A stretch of 64,000 nt of DNA from Tateyamaria sp. Alg231-49 (GTDB taxonomy: Bacteria > Pseudomonadota > Alphaproteobacteria > Rhodobacterales > Rhodobacteraceae): positions 524,387-588,386 of the forward strand of contig NZ_FRFA01000001.1 of NCBI RefSeq assembly GCF_900143535.1. Reading direction: 5' to 3'. Of this stretch, positions 1,490 through 41,741 are shown piece by piece; positions within the stretch are counted from its first letter, which is position 1; each line of letters starts with the position of its first letter. Below the pieces are notes generated by a model. The model was not told the DNA's origin and did not search any database. It worked only from the letters and a program-made list of their open reading frames with translations. The translations under genes were made by a program, and so were the position numbers.

Positions 1490-1575
1490 TGGTACCCAAG
1501 GCCGGACTCGAACCGGCACGTCCGTTAGGACGGGGGATTTTGAATCCCCTGCGTCTACCATTCCGCCACTTGGGC
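1490..1575 (-). tRNA. tRNA-Leu(CAA)
   Basis: The minus strand reads as a complete class II tRNA with encoded CCA (complement of 1490-1492). The acceptor arm GCCCAAG pairs with CTTGGGT (G:U at the first pair) and the discriminator base is A. The anticodon stem GGGGA/TCCCC encloses a loop with anticodon CAA, and a long variable arm fits leucine. The 5' half (1538-1575) is repeated exactly at 5651-5688, so this gene is the attachment site of the neighbouring integrated element. It is still intact because the element supplies an identical 5' half. Its own upstream DNA is therefore element DNA (see the attR and promoter entries). Confidence 0.95.
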
Positions 1576-1580
1576 CTCAT
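1538..1580. repeat. attL, 43-bp direct repeat (left end of element)
   Basis: Identical to 5651-5693 over 43 bases. It covers the anticodon loop to the 5' end of tRNA-Leu(CAA) plus 5 bases upstream of the mature tRNA. The bases just outside the repeat differ at both ends. Strand exchange probably falls in the anticodon-loop part, the usual place for integrases of this type, but the exact crossover cannot be read from sequence. Confidence 0.9.
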
Positions 1581-1601
1581 TGAAAACATTAGACTTTCTC
1601 T

Positions 1602-1660
1602 GTCTACTGCTTCCCTTGTCTTGGTTTATTGAGGTAATCTCGTCTACTAAATGTCTACTG
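1602..1660. promoter_or_regulatory. left arm-type integrase binding sites (candidate)
   Basis: The octamer GTCTACT(A/G) occurs at 1602-1609, 1642-1649 and 1653-1660. The 17-mer CTACTAAATGTCTACTG at 1644-1660 recurs exactly at 5582-5598 near the right end of the element. Repeats shared by both ends, directly inside the attachment sites and next to the integrase gene, are the expected pattern of arm-type sites bound by the integrase N-terminal domain. The same stretch must also contain the promoters of the integrase (rightward) and of tRNA-Leu (leftward). The only leftward -10 I can see is a weak TCTAAT (complement of 1588-1593) without a good -35. Confidence 0.65.
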
Positions 1661-1679
1661 CTGGACACAGGGGACTATT

Positions 1680-2933
1680 ATGCAAACCAAGATCACTCAA
1701 AGGGCCATCGCCAAGCTTGAATCAACTGGTAGCGTCCAATTCATACGTGATTCTGACCTTCAGGGATTTGGTATCAAGGTGACTGCCAAAGGGAAAGCCT
1801 CCTATTTCGTTGAAGGCAGGATCAAGGGAGGACGCACTGTCAGGAAGGCCATTGGCTCTGTGGATCATATCGCATTGGACCAAGCCAAGACGGACGCCAA
1901 GGGGATGCTGTACCGCCTCTCCAAAGGGATCGACATATCAAAGGAACGGACAACCCCTGCCCCATTACCCGTTGAACCTGACACGCTTCAGGATGCTCTG
2001 GACAAATACCTGCTGACCCGTGTCTCCCTCAGGGAAACGACAGTGAACGACTATAAGAAAGTGTTCGCCAACTGCTTCCCCGAATTGCTCCACATCCCGA
2101 TTGAGGACATCAGCAAAGAAACTGTAGCCGCCAAGCACAGGGAATTGACCAAGCAAGGCAAGTCTACCGCTTACGTGAACAAGGCCATGCGGACCCTGAA
2201 GGCTGTCTTCAACTCAACGGACCTCACCCGCAATCCCGTCACTCAGTTCTACAAATCATCAGGTGTCACCACCAAACCGACAGCACGACACAGATACCTG
2301 TCAGCCCATGAAATTTCAGAGATTGTCCAACTGACCAGACGGGACAAGGAAGCCATTCCCTACCCCAATGTGAACAGAGACTTTGCAGACCTGCTGATGT
2401 TCTACCTTCTGACAGGCTGTCGATTGAATGAGGCTCTTGGGCTTAGGAAGTCAGATTACAATCACCGCGAGGACACGCTTACCTTCAGGGACACCAAATC
2501 AGGACGGGACCACACCATTCCCTGCACTGGATGGATCAAACGGATTACTCAACGCTACGCCACATCAGACGACGACAGCACACTGTTTCCATTCACGTAC
2601 AGCACCTATCGCCACCAGTTCGACATTCACCGTAAGATACTTGGGTTCCACGAACCTTGGACGACACACGACCTCAGGAGGACATTTGCTGAGCATTGCC
2701 AGTTAATCGGGGTGGATCATCACGTCATATCCGCTTGTCTCAACCATGCCCCTGTCGGTGTCACAAGTCGATCATACTTGGGTGGCGGTCTTGCCAAGAA
2801 GCATATGCTGTCAGAAGTTTACGGCCAGCTACAGCGACAATACTCGGCTTACGTCATGGGATTGCCAGAGGCCAAGTACGCTCCTGAGGATGATCTGGCC
2901 ACACTGGTTGATGAGATGTATTCAGAGCACTGA
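1680..2933 (+). CDS. int: P4-type tyrosine recombinase/integrase
   Basis: A 417-residue site-specific recombinase that would insert and, with a partner, excise the element at tRNA-Leu. Residues 1-90 match the N-terminal arm-binding domain of P4-type integrases (DUF4102-like), about 100-190 the SAM-like core-binding domain, and 205-385 the catalytic domain. The catalytic set is complete: Arg248 (LLTGCRLNEAL), Lys273, His330 and Arg333 (HDLRRTF), His356 (LNH) and Tyr366 (SRSYLGG). The ATG has an AGGGG ribosome site 6 nt upstream. The gene starts 100 bp inside attL, the usual arrangement for tRNA-integrated elements. All active-site residues are present, so the enzyme may be functional. No excisionase gene is recognised beside it. 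Confidence 0.93.
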   Translation: MQTKITQRAIAKLESTGSVQFIRDSDLQGFGIKVTAKGKASYFVEGRIKGGRTVRKAIGSVDHIALDQAKTDAKGMLYRLSKGIDISKERTTPAPLPVEPDTLQDALDKYLLTRVSLRETTVNDYKKVFANCFPELLHIPIEDISKETVAAKHRELTKQGKSTAYVNKAMRTLKAVFNSTDLTRNPVTQFYKSSGVTTKPTARHRYLSAHEISEIVQLTRRDKEAIPYPNVNRDFADLLMFYLLTGCRLNEALGLRKSDYNHREDTLTFRDTKSGRDHTIPCTGWIKRITQRYATSDDDSTLFPFTYSTYRHQFDIHRKILGFHEPWTTHDLRRTFAEHCQLIGVDHHVISACLNHAPVGVTSRSYLGGGLAKKHMLSEVYGQLQRQYSAYVMGLPEAKYAPEDDLATLVDEMYSEH

Positions 2934-3332
2934 TTCGCTTATGTTCTGATCCACAGTTATGTCCACACGTCAACAATAAACTTGACTTTTGTCTCAGAAA
3001 CTGATACGCTTAATGCATGTTTTTCAAATTAACCCAACAAGCCAGGGCGAATCAGTTACCAAAATGGACGATGCTCGAACCCATACCAATCCTCTTATGT
3101 CAACAGAAACTTGACAAAAAGGAATTTTTCCCTTACACTATATGTATGGGGTGCAAGTAACCTCCAGTGATCTTTGGATCATGACCAGTACCAGATTTAT
3201 CAAAGAGCACATTACGGTGTTCTCTTTCATGAAGCTGAGTGGGCCATACTCAGAATGTTACTCCTAACCGAGTAGCGGCAAACAAGCCCAACATCCCTAC
3301 AATTAAATACCTACAATGAAGGATGCTTAGCT
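2934..3332 (+). promoter_or_regulatory. element intergenic region with two sigma-70-like promoters and a folded leader
   Basis: Non-coding 399 bp after the integrase. TTGACT (2982-2987), 17-bp spacer, TACGCT (3005-3010) and TTGACA (3111-3116), 17-bp spacer, TACACT (3134-3139) look like two rightward promoters; the second has a perfect -35. The transcript from the second would have a leader of about 190 nt before the next gene. It contains two stem-loops: AAAGAG/CTCTTT (3202-3227, with an inner CAC/GTG) and CTGAGT/ACTCAG (3235-3253). No run of T follows either, so they are not simple terminators. Function unknown. Confidence 0.5.
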
Positions 3333-3635
3333 ATGCCAAGCCGTACCCCTAAGCCATGGTCGCACTATCAGAAGATGCGCAAAGAAAACCCACGTCAGTA
3401 TCGTACTGGTGCTGTACAAAACCAGATGCTCCAAGACAGGGAATATCTAGGCCAGTCATTCTACAAAGTTCAGAACGAGGACGACAAACTACAGAAAGCA
3501 GTAAAGCTATTAGAGGAAATTGTTGGTGAGCCTAACGACACTGACAACGATGAACCTAAAGTAGTCCGTTCCTCTCTGATGTTCCGTGGGGAGGATAGGG
3601 TAGAACGCACTGAGGAGGACTATAGCAAATGGTAG
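3333..3635 (+). CDS. hypothetical protein of the integrated element (100 aa)
   Basis: A 100-residue, highly charged soluble protein with no membrane segment or signal peptide. The N-terminal third is basic and aromatic (KPWSHYQKMRKENPRQY). The rest is acidic and Gln-rich with a likely helix around residues 45-65. GAAGGA lies about 9 nt upstream of the ATG. It is the first gene behind the stronger element promoter. Its stop overlaps the start of a 24-codon membrane peptide, as in phage gene clusters. The N-terminal motif gives a phage-like impression, but I cannot assign a family. A small DNA- or RNA-binding protein is one possibility. Confidence 0.6.
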   Translation: MPSRTPKPWSHYQKMRKENPRQYRTGAVQNQMLQDREYLGQSFYKVQNEDDKLQKAVKLLEEIVGEPNDTDNDEPKVVRSSLMFRGEDRVERTEEDYSKW

Positions 3636-3703
3636 AGGCTGTCGTACTCACTTGGTTCATAATGTCTGCCGTACTTCTACTGCTCATGTGGTGGTTCAAG
3701 TAA
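3629..3703 (+). CDS. predicted 24-aa single-span membrane micropeptide
   Basis: The ATG at 3629 overlaps the end of the 100-aa gene, and a strong AGGAGG (3613-3618) stands 10 nt before it. The 24-residue product begins MVEAVVLTWF, is almost entirely hydrophobic (VLLLLMWW core) and ends in a positively charged FK. That is one transmembrane helix with a charged C-terminal anchor. Peptides like this occur as small holin-like, toxin-like or regulatory membrane proteins in phages and satellites. Evidence is the ribosome site, translational overlap and composition only. Confidence 0.5.
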   Translation: MVEAVVLTWFIMSAVLLLLMWWFK

Positions 3704-3851
3704 CTTAAAAAAGATTGGCCAATAGAGTGGGTGGGAGTCCCTCTATAGCCGATAGGCTCCTAGTCTGGTCCGCTAGTTGAGCTAAAGCTGGTCCCGGTGG
3801 ATGTTCCCCTTCCTCAGTGTCTATCGTGGCCAGTGATTACCCCTAATACAA
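3704..3851 (+). other. non-coding, possibly structured interval in the element
   Basis: About 150 bases with no good open frame, between the micropeptide and the acidic small gene. There is an inverted repeat ATAGAG/CTCTAT around a G-rich loop near 3720-3750, and further short complementary segments up to about 3800. It could be a structured leader of the downstream genes or a small RNA. No promoter or terminator is clear. Confidence 0.3.
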
Positions 3852-3866
3852 ATGAAAGAACTTACT

Positions 3867-4007
3867 ATGTCCCACGATCCTAACGATGATGAACTAGAGC
3901 AAGACTTCAACGACACTGAAGAAGACGATGAAAGCATACCTCCTGAAGCAATGTCCGAAGCTGAGCTAAGAGAGCGATATGAGAACGACCCACGGGAGAT
4001 GCACTGA
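3867..4007 (+). CDS. small acidic protein of the element (46 aa)
   Basis: An open frame of 46 codons whose TGA shares its last base with the ATG of the helicase-like gene (TGATG), implying translational coupling. An in-frame ATG 15 nt upstream (3852) would give 51 aa; neither start has a good ribosome site. The product is extremely acidic (stretches such as DDELEQDF and TEEDDES), with a few basic residues only near the C-terminus (LRERYENDPREMH). Very acidic small proteins of mobile elements are sometimes DNA mimics or polymerase/nuclease inhibitors, but nothing here identifies a target. Confidence 0.5.
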   Translation: MSHDPNDDELEQDFNDTEEDDESIPPEAMSEAELRERYENDPREMH

Positions 4008-5164
4008 TGCCCTATGACTTCACATCTACTTCAGTTCCAGCGCAGGAGGTGCAACAGCGTGTCTCCAAATTGGTCAAGAAAGCTATCAAAAAATCACTGC
4101 CAGACGGTGACAAGGAAACGTGGTTCTTCAGAAGCGATACTGGCACCGGGAAAACAACTGGCTTCATTCAGGCTATCGCGGACAGTTCAAATTCATTTGC
4201 AATTGCTGTCCCCACGATGGTCGATGTCGATAGCGTCTATGACGATTTATTCAGTCTTGGCGTGGATGTCTTCAGGTGGCATTCCAACTCTGGGACGGAA
4301 AAGAAGGACGGGAGAGGCTACCGTGTGGTTGTCGGCACTCATGCCTTTATGCTGTCAGAAAAGGATGATCCCACACGCCATATCGGGGACAAGGACATTC
4401 TGATTGTCGATGAGGTCCCCAGTACCGCTAGGGCCAAAGCTGTCCAGCATTCCGATATCGTGAAAGCGAGGGAATATGCGGAAGAATACCTATCCCAGGA
4501 ATTGAAAGATGGGTTCCGTAATCTGGAGGAATGGGTTCAACGCAGACATGGTTACGCTGTGGACGATGGGGGCAACGCTGCATTCCATCCTATCAAGGTT
4601 AAGCATAGTCCTGCCTTGCTCAGTGCTGAGAGTGAGATTGTCGAAATACCGAATGAGAGTGCCAAGCGTAAGCTGCGTGAGGTTGTCGAGTTCCTAGTTG
4701 CTGTCAGTGAACAACGGGCATTTGAACGGGTGATGCGAGGTCCCAAGGGCCATGTCATGTATTACTGTTGGTTTGCCTTCCCTGCGTACAATTTCTCAAA
4801 GCAGATTGTTTTCAGTGCGACCTGTCACTTGGACGGGCTTCAATTCAGCCCTGATGGTGGCAAGATTGTCAGCGAGTATTGTGGCTTTGACGTGGACTAC
4901 ACGAACCTGACTGTGTGGGATGTCCCGTATCCGGTGAAGGAATTCCCCAAAGCTGTGAGTAGGTTCAATCTGCCAGACTTCGAAAAGGCATACGATCACG
5001 TCATGGCGATGGTTGAACATGCTGCATTGAAGAACAGGGAAATAGTCGTTGTCTGCCCCAAGCGGATGAAAGAAAGCATCGCACACAAGAACGACATTCC
5101 CACCAGTAGCGAGACATTCACCCTGCACACGTACACGCGAGGAGACTTTCTGGGGTGTGTGTGA
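4007..5164 (+). CDS. superfamily-2 helicase-like ATPase, C-terminally truncated
   Basis: 385 residues. RecA-like domain 1 carries a Walker A (DTGTGKTT, 44-51), a DEVP box (135-138) in place of DEAD/DEAH, and an SAT motif (270-272). A start of RecA domain 2 is seen (EIVVVCPKRMKES, about 345-356, like motif IV). The protein stops at residue 385 after HTYTRGDFLG, about where motif V is expected, so motif VI with its arginine finger is missing. The stop codon lies inside the first copy of the repeat array, so the 3' end was probably lost when the array arose or by recombination there. Related proteins act as replication helicases or origin-binding proteins of phages and plasmids. Whether this version still unwinds DNA is doubtful. 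Confidence 0.7.
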   Translation: MPYDFTSTSVPAQEVQQRVSKLVKKAIKKSLPDGDKETWFFRSDTGTGKTTGFIQAIADSSNSFAIAVPTMVDVDSVYDDLFSLGVDVFRWHSNSGTEKKDGRGYRVVVGTHAFMLSEKDDPTRHIGDKDILIVDEVPSTARAKAVQHSDIVKAREYAEEYLSQELKDGFRNLEEWVQRRHGYAVDDGGNAAFHPIKVKHSPALLSAESEIVEIPNESAKRKLREVVEFLVAVSEQRAFERVMRGPKGHVMYYCWFAFPAYNFSKQIVFSATCHLDGLQFSPDGGKIVSEYCGFDVDYTNLTVWDVPYPVKEFPKAVSRFNLPDFEKAYDHVMAMVEHAALKNREIVVVCPKRMKESIAHKNDIPTSSETFTLHTYTRGDFLGCV

Positions 5165-5535
5165 AGGTCGCAAACAAGAAGCGCTTGTCGTCTAGGGCGA
5201 TAAGGCAACCAACACCCTCACACACCAAAACAGCTTATGTAACTTTCTGAGTTACGTCAATGGAACCGATGTATGTTCTCAGAGAGGGGGCGTGTGTGAA
5301 GGCACCTCTGGAGTAGGTGTTGCTCTCTGGGGAACAGAATACAAAAACCCTCACGCACCAAAACAGCTTATGTAACTTTCTGAGTTACGTCAATGGAACC
5401 GATGTATGTTCTCAGAGGGGGGGGGGGCGTGTGAAGGCCGAGGTAAAATCTACTGATCCTTGTGAGTTTGGGGCACAAAGAGCAAAAGCCCTCACACACC
5501 AACAAACGATACGTAACTTTCCTGATTGCCCCAAG
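5152..5535 (+). repeat. tandem ~133-bp repeats: conserved stems around variable loops
   Basis: Two nearly identical cores (5214-5303 and 5347-5438; about one mismatch over the central 70 bases) are followed by a third degenerate copy from 5488. A solitary end of a core (GGGGTGTGTGTGAAGGT) lies at 5152-5168. Each core ends in GTGTGTGAAGG(T/C) and the next begins (A/G)CCCTCACACACC, which is its inverted complement. The three unrelated intervals between them (45, 43 and 49 nt: 5169-5213, 5304-5346, 5439-5487) therefore sit as loops on conserved stems. The stem end changes from T...A in unit 1 to C...G in unit 3. Inside the core, GTAACT-ttctg-AGTTAC forms a second hairpin (5239-5255, and again 133 nt on). 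A G tract grows from 5 (5286-5290) to 11 (5417-5427). Role unknown: origin, packaging site or RNA array are candidates. Confidence 0.85.
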
Positions 5536-5579
5536 CGAGCATAAGGATAGGCCAGCTATACTTTCGGATAGGTGGAGAT

Positions 5580-5598
5580 GACTACTAAATGTCTACTG
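5580..5598. promoter_or_regulatory. right arm-type integrase binding site (candidate)
   Basis: Contains the exact 17-mer CTACTAAATGTCTACTG (5582-5598), also present at 1644-1660 inside the left end. It lies 53 bp inside attR, in the same orientation as the left copy, as expected for paired integrase arm sites. A single ATCTACTG at 5447-5454 within the third variable loop may be a further weak site. Confidence 0.6.
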
Positions 5599-5650
5599 GC
5601 CCTACCCTAGTGTCATTTAACATATTGTCTTTAAACGATAAGGCATTCTC

Positions 5651-5693
5651 TTTTGAATCCCCTGCGTCTACCATTCCGCCACTTGGGCCTCAT
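5651..5693. repeat. attR, 43-bp direct repeat with orphan tRNA-Leu 5' half
   Basis: Exact copy of 1538-1580. On the minus strand it is the 5' half of tRNA-Leu(CAA) up to the anticodon loop, then it runs into element DNA, so no functional tRNA can be made from it. This is the original chromosomal 5' half, separated from its 3' half by the insertion. Confidence 0.9.
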
Positions 5694-10231: not shown

Positions 10232-11071
10232 ATGAAATTCCAAGGTACAGACGCCTATGTCGCCACCGACGATCTGACCATAGCGGTGAACGCCGCCGTG
10301 ACCCTTGAGAGGCCCCTGTTGGTCAAGGGCGAACCCGGTACCGGCAAGACCGAATTGGCCAAACAGGTCTCGCGGTCATTGGGCCTACGTCTGATCGAAT
10401 GGAACATCAAATCGACCACCCGCGCGCAACAAGGCCTTTATGAATATGATGCCGTTTCACGCCTGCGTGACAGCCAGCTCGGCGAAGACAAGGTGCACAA
10501 TGTTGCAAACTACATCAAAAAGGGAAAACTCTGGGAGGCCTTCGAGGCGGACGAAAAAGTTGTTTTGCTGATCGACGAAATCGACAAGGCGGACATCGAG
10601 TTTCCAAACGATCTGCTACAGGAACTCGATAAAATGGAGTTCTTTGTCTACGAGACTGGCGAGACCATTCGCGCCCGCCACCGCCCCGTCGTCATCATCA
10701 CCTCTAACAATGAAAAAGAACTGCCTGACGCGTTCCTGCGCCGTTGTTTTTTCCACTATATCCAGTTCCCGGACATGGAGACGATGAAGCAGATCGTTGC
10801 CGTGCATCATCCCGACATCAAACAGGGGTTGCTGACCACGGCCCTTACCCAGTTCTTTGAAGTCCGCGACCAGCAAGGCCTGAAGAAAAAGCCGTCCACA
10901 TCCGAAGTACTCGACTGGCTAAAACTACTCTTGGCCGAGGATATGAGCGCCGAAGACCTCAAACGCGATGGCGCAAACGCGCTGCCCAAACTCCATGGCG
11001 CTCTTTTGAAAAACGAACAGGACGTGCACCTGTTTGAACGGCTGGCGTTCATGGCGCGCGGGCAACGTTAA
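10232..11071 (+). CDS. MoxR-family AAA+ ATPase
   Basis: 279 residues. Walker A GEPGTGKTEL (about 36-45), Walker B VVLLIDEIDKAD (about 110-121), sensor region ITSNNEKELPDAFLRRC. MoxR ATPases act as chaperone-like factors together with von Willebrand A proteins in assembling or activating metal-enzyme and other complexes. The matching CoxE-like VWA protein is encoded at 13401, separated by a GNAT, a lipoprotein and a small membrane protein gene. A weak hairpin (11116-11132) lies 45 bp after the stop. Confidence 0.9.
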   Translation: MKFQGTDAYVATDDLTIAVNAAVTLERPLLVKGEPGTGKTELAKQVSRSLGLRLIEWNIKSTTRAQQGLYEYDAVSRLRDSQLGEDKVHNVANYIKKGKLWEAFEADEKVVLLIDEIDKADIEFPNDLLQELDKMEFFVYETGETIRARHRPVVIITSNNEKELPDAFLRRCFFHYIQFPDMETMKQIVAVHHPDIKQGLLTTALTQFFEVRDQQGLKKKPSTSEVLDWLKLLLAEDMSAEDLKRDGANALPKLHGALLKNEQDVHLFERLAFMARGQR

Positions 11072-11372
11072 CCGCCCAAACCCAATAGCCGCCGGTCTGG
11101 GCGAACCCAGCCAGGGCCGCAAGAAACGCGGCTTTGATCTAGCACTTTGGAAGGTCGTCTGAGGTCCGCACTCGGCCTGAGAGCCACCCCTCTGCTCACG
11201 GTCTTGCACCGCTCACAGGGGCATTTCAGCCACATGTTCGCTCGCTCTTCAGTTGCAGAACCAGCCTGTGGATAAAATGTCTTTCTTTTGCCTGAAATGC
11301 TTCATAAGTTGACCGTGATGAGAGGTGAAAACACCCGCATCCAATATGCTAAAAGGCAGGCAGGCAGTATAA
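11072..11372. other. intergenic region between MoxR and GNAT genes
   Basis: About 300 bp. GCCGC-aagaaac-GCGGC followed by TTT (11116-11135) may be a weak terminator of the MoxR gene. The rest presumably contains the promoter for the downstream GNAT/lipoprotein operon. No other feature is seen. Confidence 0.4.
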
Positions 11373-11828
11373 ATGACAGGTTCAGACGCACTTATTGTGC
11401 GCCCACTTTCTTTGTCGGATCGCGTCCAATGGGGCGATCTGTGGGCGGCCTATCTTGCGTTTTACGAAACGTCTCGTCCGAAATCGATCTTTGATACATA
11501 TTTTGCCCGCCTCCTTGGTGATGACCCACAGGACTATAATGGGCTGGTGGCCGAAGCGGATGGCAAGTTGGTCGGACTGACCCACTACGTCTTTCATCGT
11601 CATGGCTGGAAAGTCGAAAACGTCTGCTACCTGCAGGATCTCTATGCGGATCCATCCGTGCGTGGTCAGGGGGTTGGCCGCAAGCTGATCGAAGCGGTCT
11701 ACTCCGCTGCTGATGATGTTGGAAGCCCGTCCGTCTATTGGATGACGCAGGATTTCAACACCGAAGCCCGCAAGCTTTATGACCGCATCGGGAAACTCTC
11801 TCCCTTCATTAAGTATGAACGGGGATGA
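11373..11828 (+). CDS. GNAT family N-acetyltransferase
   Basis: 151 residues with the acetyl-CoA-binding motif A (YADPSVRGQGVGRKLIEAVY) and motif B ending in FNTEARKLYDRIG. Acts in the cytoplasm on an unknown amine. AGGCAG repeats precede the ATG. Its TGA overlaps the start of the DUF2927 lipoprotein gene (ATGA), so the two are coupled in translation, but nothing reveals the substrate. Confidence 0.85.
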   Translation: MTGSDALIVRPLSLSDRVQWGDLWAAYLAFYETSRPKSIFDTYFARLLGDDPQDYNGLVAEADGKLVGLTHYVFHRHGWKVENVCYLQDLYADPSVRGQGVGRKLIEAVYSAADDVGSPSVYWMTQDFNTEARKLYDRIGKLSPFIKYERG

Positions 11829-40953: not shown

Positions 40954-41741
40954 CGGGCGCCAGCCGCGATCTGCGCATAGATGTGCCAAGACGCATGCCC
41001 GAGCCACGGCAGGATCACCAGCAATCCTAGCAAACCCGGCAACATTGCCAATCCTAGCATGACCACGATCACTATCGCCCAGCCGATCATTGCGCGGCTG
41101 TACTCACGCACATAGGCCACGCTGCTGAGGATCGCCGTCATGTAATCGACCTCTCGTGCAAGGAGCAGCGGCAGACCCAGAACGCACATGGCAAAGAACA
41201 GGAAGGCGAACAGGCCCCCAATCACCGTCCCCAACGCCATCATCATCAAGCCGTCAGGGCTCAGAAACACATCAAGCGACGTCGTCACATTCACCATCGG
41301 CTTCAGCCCCAGAAACAGTGCAAAGATCATGTGACCGAGGAAAAACCAGAACAAGAGAGCGACCACCATCAACATCGACAGCCACGGGATTTGTCGCCCG
41401 CGTTCGACCCGCAATCGGTATAGGACGGCGCCGAGTGACACAGGTTCACCCGCACCAATGCGCCGGGACACCTCATACGTGCCAAGCGCACAAAGCGGGG
41501 CCACCAGTGGAAAGCCAAAGACTGCCAATATGAGCCAGAATGTGTGCCCGGCCCACATCGTTAGTCCCATCAGCAACCACCCCGTCAACACAGCACTCGC
41601 GCCCGCCAGAAGGCCAAACGCGGGGCGCGCCCGGAAATCAGCCCATCCAAGGCGCAGCGCGCGGGACATAAAGCCCTCGGGGGGGGCATGAAACGGGGGC
41701 ACGCCTGCGGGCAGATCCGGGTACGGGTTGGTTTGGGTCAT
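40950..41741 (-). CDS. DUF2189 membrane protein
   Basis: 263 residues with six hydrophobic spans. The DUF2189 pattern is visible: ALRLGWADFRARPAFGLLAG at the start, FPLVAPLCALGTYEVSRR, and a C-terminal LGHASWHIYAQI. An integral inner-membrane protein of unknown function. 12 bp after the amidase start region on the same strand, so probably in one transcript with the amidase. Confidence 0.85.
   Translation of the reverse strand: MTQTNPYPDLPAGVPPFHAPPEGFMSRALRLGWADFRARPAFGLLAGASAVLTGWLLMGLTMWAGHTFWLILAVFGFPLVAPLCALGTYEVSRRIGAGEPVSLGAVLYRLRVERGRQIPWLSMLMVVALLFWFFLGHMIFALFLGLKPMVNVTTSLDVFLSPDGLMMMALGTVIGGLFAFLFFAMCVLGLPLLLAREVDYMTAILSSVAYVREYSRAMIGWAIVIVVMLGLAMLPGLLGLLVILPWLGHASWHIYAQIAAGAR

Follow-up and report, generated by a model that had tools for sequence, protein, structure and literature searches.

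A tandem array of near-identical cores and unrelated intervals, possibly encoding hairpin small RNAs, in a degenerate-looking tRNA-Leu integrative element of Tateyamaria sp. Alg231-49

The small RNAs NgncR_162 and NgncR_163 of Neisseria are encoded in tandem. Together with AbcR1 and AbcR2 of Sinorhizobium meliloti they represent sibling small RNAs (PMC9973317 and PMC3712013). Hairpin RNAs are also carried by mobile elements in the form of RNA anti-CRISPRs (Racrs), or solitary repeat units, which mimic a CRISPR repeat, often immediately follow a predicted promoter and lie apart from cas genes (PMC10651486). Furthermore, tandem repeats with unrelated intervals are found in type IV CRISPR arrays, and two of these, at loci L018 and L011 of other genomes, were compared with the locus described here.

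The window, i.e., the whole analysed stretch of 64,000 nucleotides, is located on a 740,553-bp contig of the 4.5-Mb assembly of Tateyamaria sp. Alg231-49. Its array, at positions 5152-5535, consists of two complete cores between a solitary right arm and a diverged left half (Table 1), and on the minus strand it reads as three homologous tandem units, A, B and C, each predicted to fold into a hairpin on that one strand. As in the sibling small RNAs, similar small RNA units stand side by side, those of the array being known by prediction only; unlike the siblings, the array combines a near-constant candidate promoter and outer stem with unrelated middles, and resides on a mobile element. The combination of a mobile element with a hairpin RNA, here a predicted one, is shared with Racrs, whereas the array has three units, no detected likeness to a CRISPR repeat and a host genome in which no Cas1 was found. 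Some CRISPR repeat families are included in Rfam, and at gathering score only three tRNAs were matched in the whole window, the array being without a match. As to the type IV arrays of L018 and L011, the helicase is common to these loci and ours, as are the integrase and tRNA gene in the case of L018; their repeats differ from the array in having a 64-67-bp unit, a hairpin within the repeat (by eye) and adjacent cas genes. We tentatively read the array as three small RNA genes, arranged in tandem and read from the minus strand, within a decayed tRNA-Leu integrative element, an interpretation that we consider possible and somewhat short of probable.

Table 1. Features of the array and of the integrative element, with positions in the window
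Feature	Position	Strand	Details
Integrative element in tRNA-Leu(CAA)	1538..5693		4.1 kb
Attachment repeats	1538-1580 and 5651-5693		43/43 identical, local blastn of the two flanks
tRNA-Leu(CAA)	1490-1575	minus	
Tyrosine integrase	1680..2933	plus	417 aa; Phage_integrase E 4.7e-14, Arm-DNA-bind_3 E 5.2e-8
100-aa protein	3333..3635	plus	
SF2 (DEAD/DEAH-type) helicase	4007..5164	plus	385 aa, C-terminal part missing; DEAD 26.2 bits, barely over the cut-off of 26
Lone right arm	5152-5167		
Complete core 1	5215-5302		88 bp
Complete core 2	5348-5437		90 bp
Diverged left half	5489-5535		47 bases
Unit A	5425..5535	minus	-35-like TTGGGG 5534-5529, 17-nt spacer, -10-like TATCGT 5511-5506
Unit A stem		minus	5' arm 5500-5489; 51-nt interval 5488-5438; 3' arm from 5437
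Unit B	5290..5394	minus	TTGACG 5393-5388, 17-nt spacer, TAAGCT 5370-5365
Unit B stem		minus	5' arm 5359-5348; 45-nt interval 5347-5303; 3' arm from 5302
Unit C	5155..5261	minus	TTGACG 5260-5255, 17-nt spacer, TAAGCT 5237-5232
Unit C stem		minus	5' arm 5226-5215; 47-nt interval 5214-5168; 3' arm from 5167
Palindrome GTAAC-N7-GTTAC	5239-5255		operator-like; in promoter spacer of unit C
Palindrome, copy	5372-5388		in unit B
11-G run	5417-5427		between unit A 3' arm and unit B promoter

Aligned with each other, the two complete cores agree at 84 positions and differ by 4 mismatches and 2 gap positions, and the diverged left half is identical to the corresponding bases of these cores at 32 and 33 positions. 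The core starts are 133 and 141 bp apart, in agreement with the first-pass annotation of this DNA, which had reported cores of about 90 bp at 133-141-bp steps. On the minus strand the inverted arms, GGTG[T/C]GTGAGGG and CCTTCACAC, enclose the intervals; the three variable loops reported earlier are there, and the lengths of 43-49 nt that had been assigned to them depart from those in Table 1 due to a different definition of the arm ends. Equally real are the arms themselves, which had been described as the end of each core forming the inverted complement of the next core's start. The same arms, however, also bound each core, so that, by geometry, a hairpin could enclose the core just as well as the interval. 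The order candidate promoter, arm, interval, arm is kept even by the partial copies at both ends of the array. With up to two mismatches permitted, the stem motif was matched nine times in the window, six of these matches being inside the array. It should be noted that the 11-G run is a possible slippage or assembly site; only one other run of at least 8 G or C occurs in the window (8 G at 41679).

Fold prediction for the whole 401-nt stretch gave a modest z of -2.24 on the minus strand (2 of 100 shuffles as good) and -0.44 on the plus strand (33 of 100). For the single units, with 500 shuffles each, the predicted z was -4.95, -2.60 and -2.17 on the minus strand and +0.40, -0.37 and -1.72 on the plus strand, i.e., lower on the minus strand in all three. 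Over 12 positions, the arms of units A, B and C pair at 12, 10 and 11 on the minus strand (33 of 36) and at 10 each on the plus strand (30 of 36), and at the innermost position of the interval the paired bases are C:G, U.G and U:A on the former and C:G, C x A and U:A on the latter, the strand differences in pairing depending on few positions. Predicted folding and pairing favour the minus strand, the evidence being modest. The change from T:A to C:G at the inner pair had been taken as a sign of kept pairing; this argument omitted the middle unit, the one with C x A on the plus strand, and did not stand, as covariation at one position in three paralogous units proves nothing. The intervals of A, B and C folded alone (z -1.2, -2.2 and +1.0 on the minus strand; +1.0, -1.0 and -2.5 on the plus strand) agree on no strand, which counts against the small RNA interpretation.

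All three minus-strand units have two promoter-like hexamers 17 nt apart, followed by the stem 5-6 nt past the -10 box; these spacings are identical throughout, diverged unit A included, and the candidate promoters of units B and C are identical to each other. The promoter-like scores of A, B and C were 7, 8 and 8 of 12, values attained by 9.3%, 1.6% and 1.7% of positions picked at random in the window; upstream of the plus-strand arms, the corresponding scores were 6, 6 and 5 of 12 (attained by 32%, 33% and 67%). Compared with shuffles of the same 50 bases, the minus-strand scores were unremarkable (0.21, 0.11 and 0.11), and a promoter scan with a 9-of-12 cut listed none of the unit promoters, their scores being below that cut. 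The -10 box of Rhodobacterales is said to be loosely conserved, and each unit appears to begin with a weak, sigma-70-like candidate promoter. In units B and C the full palindrome stretches across the promoter spacer; unit A retains only its right half. At up to one mismatch the window has two palindrome sites against 0.55 expected; as many or more occur in 10 of 100 shuffles, so that the number by itself is unexceptional. No terminator-like site was found in the array on either strand, which counts against small RNA genes; transcripts might therefore pass from unit to unit and then become antisense of the helicase gene.

If the units are indeed small RNA genes, transcription would start at the first G of the stem, and each RNA of approximately 75-80 nt would fold into one long hairpin presenting its unit-specific middle. 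The palindrome would be an operator repressing units B and C, and the diverged unit A, with half a palindrome only, would escape this repression. Transcripts of the host or of competing elements may be what the middles act on, either through base pairing or by serving as decoys. An elaboration that we regard as improbable is a Cas-free RNA cassette array, in which identical, co-repressed promoters and clamp stems would be combined with middles swapped against different rival elements. Were the array transcribed, we would be dealing with a mobile element encoding a number of hairpin RNAs distinguished solely by the middle that they present, i.e., with a simple modular RNA regulation, in an element family with one other member carrying type IV CRISPR-Cas; were it not, it would be nothing unusual, a repeat belonging to an origin or a regulatory region within a degenerate element.

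The intervals align with one another no better than dinucleotide shuffles do (fractions 0.119, 0.129 and 0.353 of 1000 shuffles at least as good). Nothing convincing was matched by them elsewhere in their own genome (16 bases at E 0.56 at best), in phages (the lowest E among the matches listed being 0.2, for 25 bases from a Synechococcus phage) or in plasmids (E 3 at best among those listed). Their complementarity to the element or the window, self-matches apart, was not beyond that of shuffles (lowest fraction 0.06), and antisense action against the element's own genes was rejected on this ground. The comparison of the loops with phage and chromosome sequences, which the first-pass annotation had proposed, thus returned neither donor nor target for any interval. 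Its notion of a structured RNA with constant stems and variable loops fared better, the layout being real and the single-unit folds favouring the minus strand, although plain iterons or operators, against which it had argued, are still to be reckoned with. The "exchangeable content" that it had suggested can be deduced only from the near-identical cores with unrelated intervals; no donor, target or second array was found in the collections searched. Such a pattern would be unlike the leftovers of plain tandem duplication. Its simplest account may be that copies which had already diverged recombined through their cores, the intervals having probably grown apart in separate lineages before this reshuffling.

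Among the competing explanations, the foremost, double-stranded DNA sites of the iteron or operator kind beside the helicase gene, with a role in replication origin function, partition or regulation and with the intervals serving as neutral spacing of approximately constant length, is somewhat unlikely. The spacing of the cores, the helicase gene adjoining the array and the intervals without a sign of selection would all suit such sites, as would the presence in each complete core of GTAAC-N7-GTTAC and a weaker GAAC-N8-GTTC, about two helical turns apart (by eye). The arms, however, pair better as RNA on one strand, a bias that double-stranded sites do not need, and neutral spacers between near-identical tandem cores would be expected to be near-identical too; moreover, the array as a whole shows no A+T enrichment over the element (G+C 49.5% and 48.8%, respectively). 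Decaying leftovers, namely a MITE-like unit of 88-90 bp inserted or duplicated near a deletion junction, would explain stems and spacing as a by-product of inverted ends, and these are present on each complete core, with the helicase homology ending at or shortly before the first arm. We consider this origin unlikely: no target-site duplication was seen around the cores by eye, no further copy of the core was detected in the 4.5-Mb assembly at E 0.001, and the unit order preserved in the partial end copies speaks against it as well.

The near-identical repeats with unrelated intervals also recall a CRISPR-like array of RNA guides whose intervals would be spacers from other elements, all the more as type IV CRISPR-Cas genes occur at L018 and L011 together with arrays of 64-67-bp spacing. 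Such an identity is nevertheless very improbable here, as the repeats are not short (88-90 bp), the arms flank the interval, none of the three annotated element genes is a cas gene, and no interval is convincingly matched by phages, plasmids or, as above, the genome. The search that found no Cas1 in the genome was positive in 9 of 14 control genomes; type IV CRISPR systems are often without Cas1. Short peptide genes through the intervals are scarcely credible. GTG frames on the minus strand are open from the stem through the interval for 43, 33 and 35 codons (A, B and C), and on the plus strand two ATG frames, both starting MEPMYVLR, are open too; against coding, the frames of A and B exit the interval in different reading frames and have different ends, no ribosome-binding site was seen by eye, and such lengths are estimated to be common by chance. 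Integron attC sites were rejected, since the 45-51-bp intervals hold no gene and the element's integrase, at 18 bits, stays below the 265-bit cut-off for integron integrases.

Returning to the array as putative small RNA genes, no convincing homologue was found in 393 other genomes of the family, either by sequence or with covariance model R1, nor in 375 other genomes of the class, both sets being samples from larger groups. The DNA search of the family (394 genomes including its own) gave one foreign match, of 22 bp at E 0.004 in L003, where no further copy was noticed by eye; it was taken as chance. That of the class (376 genomes including its own) gave two, of 33 and 35 bases at E 0.005 and 0.007 per genome, which over so many genomes is about chance level. 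In the 394 family genomes R1 recovered the three own units, by construction, and one more place in the own genome (E 0.22); single matches in 16 other genomes at E 0.076-0.91 per genome were taken as chance, this search having used stricter filters by which weak matches are lost. R1 returned nothing in the 10 related loci besides the window, exact-match scans with array patterns nothing in IMG/VR and GTDB contigs, and distant blastn with the array no match in phages and plasmids. Word matching in the open-licence PMC literature revealed no description of a comparable array in titles and the beginnings of abstracts, a result that applies to these text parts and not to print as a whole.

The element carries the integrase, the 100-aa protein, the helicase gene and the array, and its assignment is based on the integrase beside tRNA-Leu, the duplicated attachment site and the empty site in relatives. 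Of 10 congeners searched for ExoD, which flanks the element, three gave a match, and each of these has a single tRNA-Leu(CAA) directly before ExoD, inside which the element's left and right flanks overlap. At E 0.001 the element had no match in 19 other genomes of the genus; by this sequence comparison its distribution is patchy. The 100-aa protein had no match in Pfam, PHROGs and NCBIfam, and its N-terminus (residues 1-44) recurs with 43-55% identity at L018, L011 and L019, the last being one place with L023. Between the 100-aa and helicase genes (3640-4006) no open reading frame of at least 80 aa starts on either strand.

Helicase relatives were found in 3 of 393 other family genomes, and three such relatives have 554, 565 and 579 aa. 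Homology of the window helicase ends at 5086-5128 with respect to these three and at 5149 with respect to a remnant in L012, and its stop codon falls within the first array arm; a search of the rest of the genome did not recover the missing C-terminal part. The array begins at or just past this truncation point, and the element therefore looks like a deletion derivative; its degenerate look counts against the small RNA interpretation. The best solved-structure matches of the helicase profile were helicase domains of reverse gyrase (E 0.005). A weak match to type IV DinG (E 0.0024), confined to the nucleotide-binding part, was given no weight.

No relative of the helicase was found by tblastn in phages and plasmids, and none of helicase or integrase was confirmed in IMG/VR contigs; in GTDB contigs 43 stretches matched the integrase alignment pattern, with 3 relatives confirmed. 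L019 and L024 have no comparable array, L024 spanning just about 1 kb beyond the integrase, and the dispersed repeats of L020 (46-300 bp) have a layout unlike that of the array. The closest integrase, with 48-49% identity, is encoded by an element that occupies tRNA-Leu(CAA) of Aestuariivita boseongensis (NZ_JXYH01000002.1; L018). This 15.5-kb integrative element (L018:2344-17905) also encodes the helicase as well as the N-terminal stretch of the 100-aa protein, and PADLOC assigned type IV CRISPR-Cas to it (Cas5, Cas6, Cas7 and DinG models), with an array of 8 repeats at 10975-11474. One related element is thus equipped with RNA-guided cargo, which says nothing on the array described here being of the same kind. 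In another genome, type IV CRISPR-Cas was assigned by PADLOC to L011:1039-5750 (Cas5, Cas7 and DinG models), with an array of 5 repeats (3719-4027) between the Cas7 and DinG genes; L011 is treated as a locus, no tRNA having been found there. By eye, the C-terminus of the L011 DinG is HNH-like; a DinG-HNH system is described for Sulfitobacter sp. JL08 (PMC10910872). The remnant of the same helicase in L012 (7510-7677) contains an in-frame TGA, and about 0.85 kb before it there is an open reading frame that by eye resembles a serine recombinase (L007:110-664).
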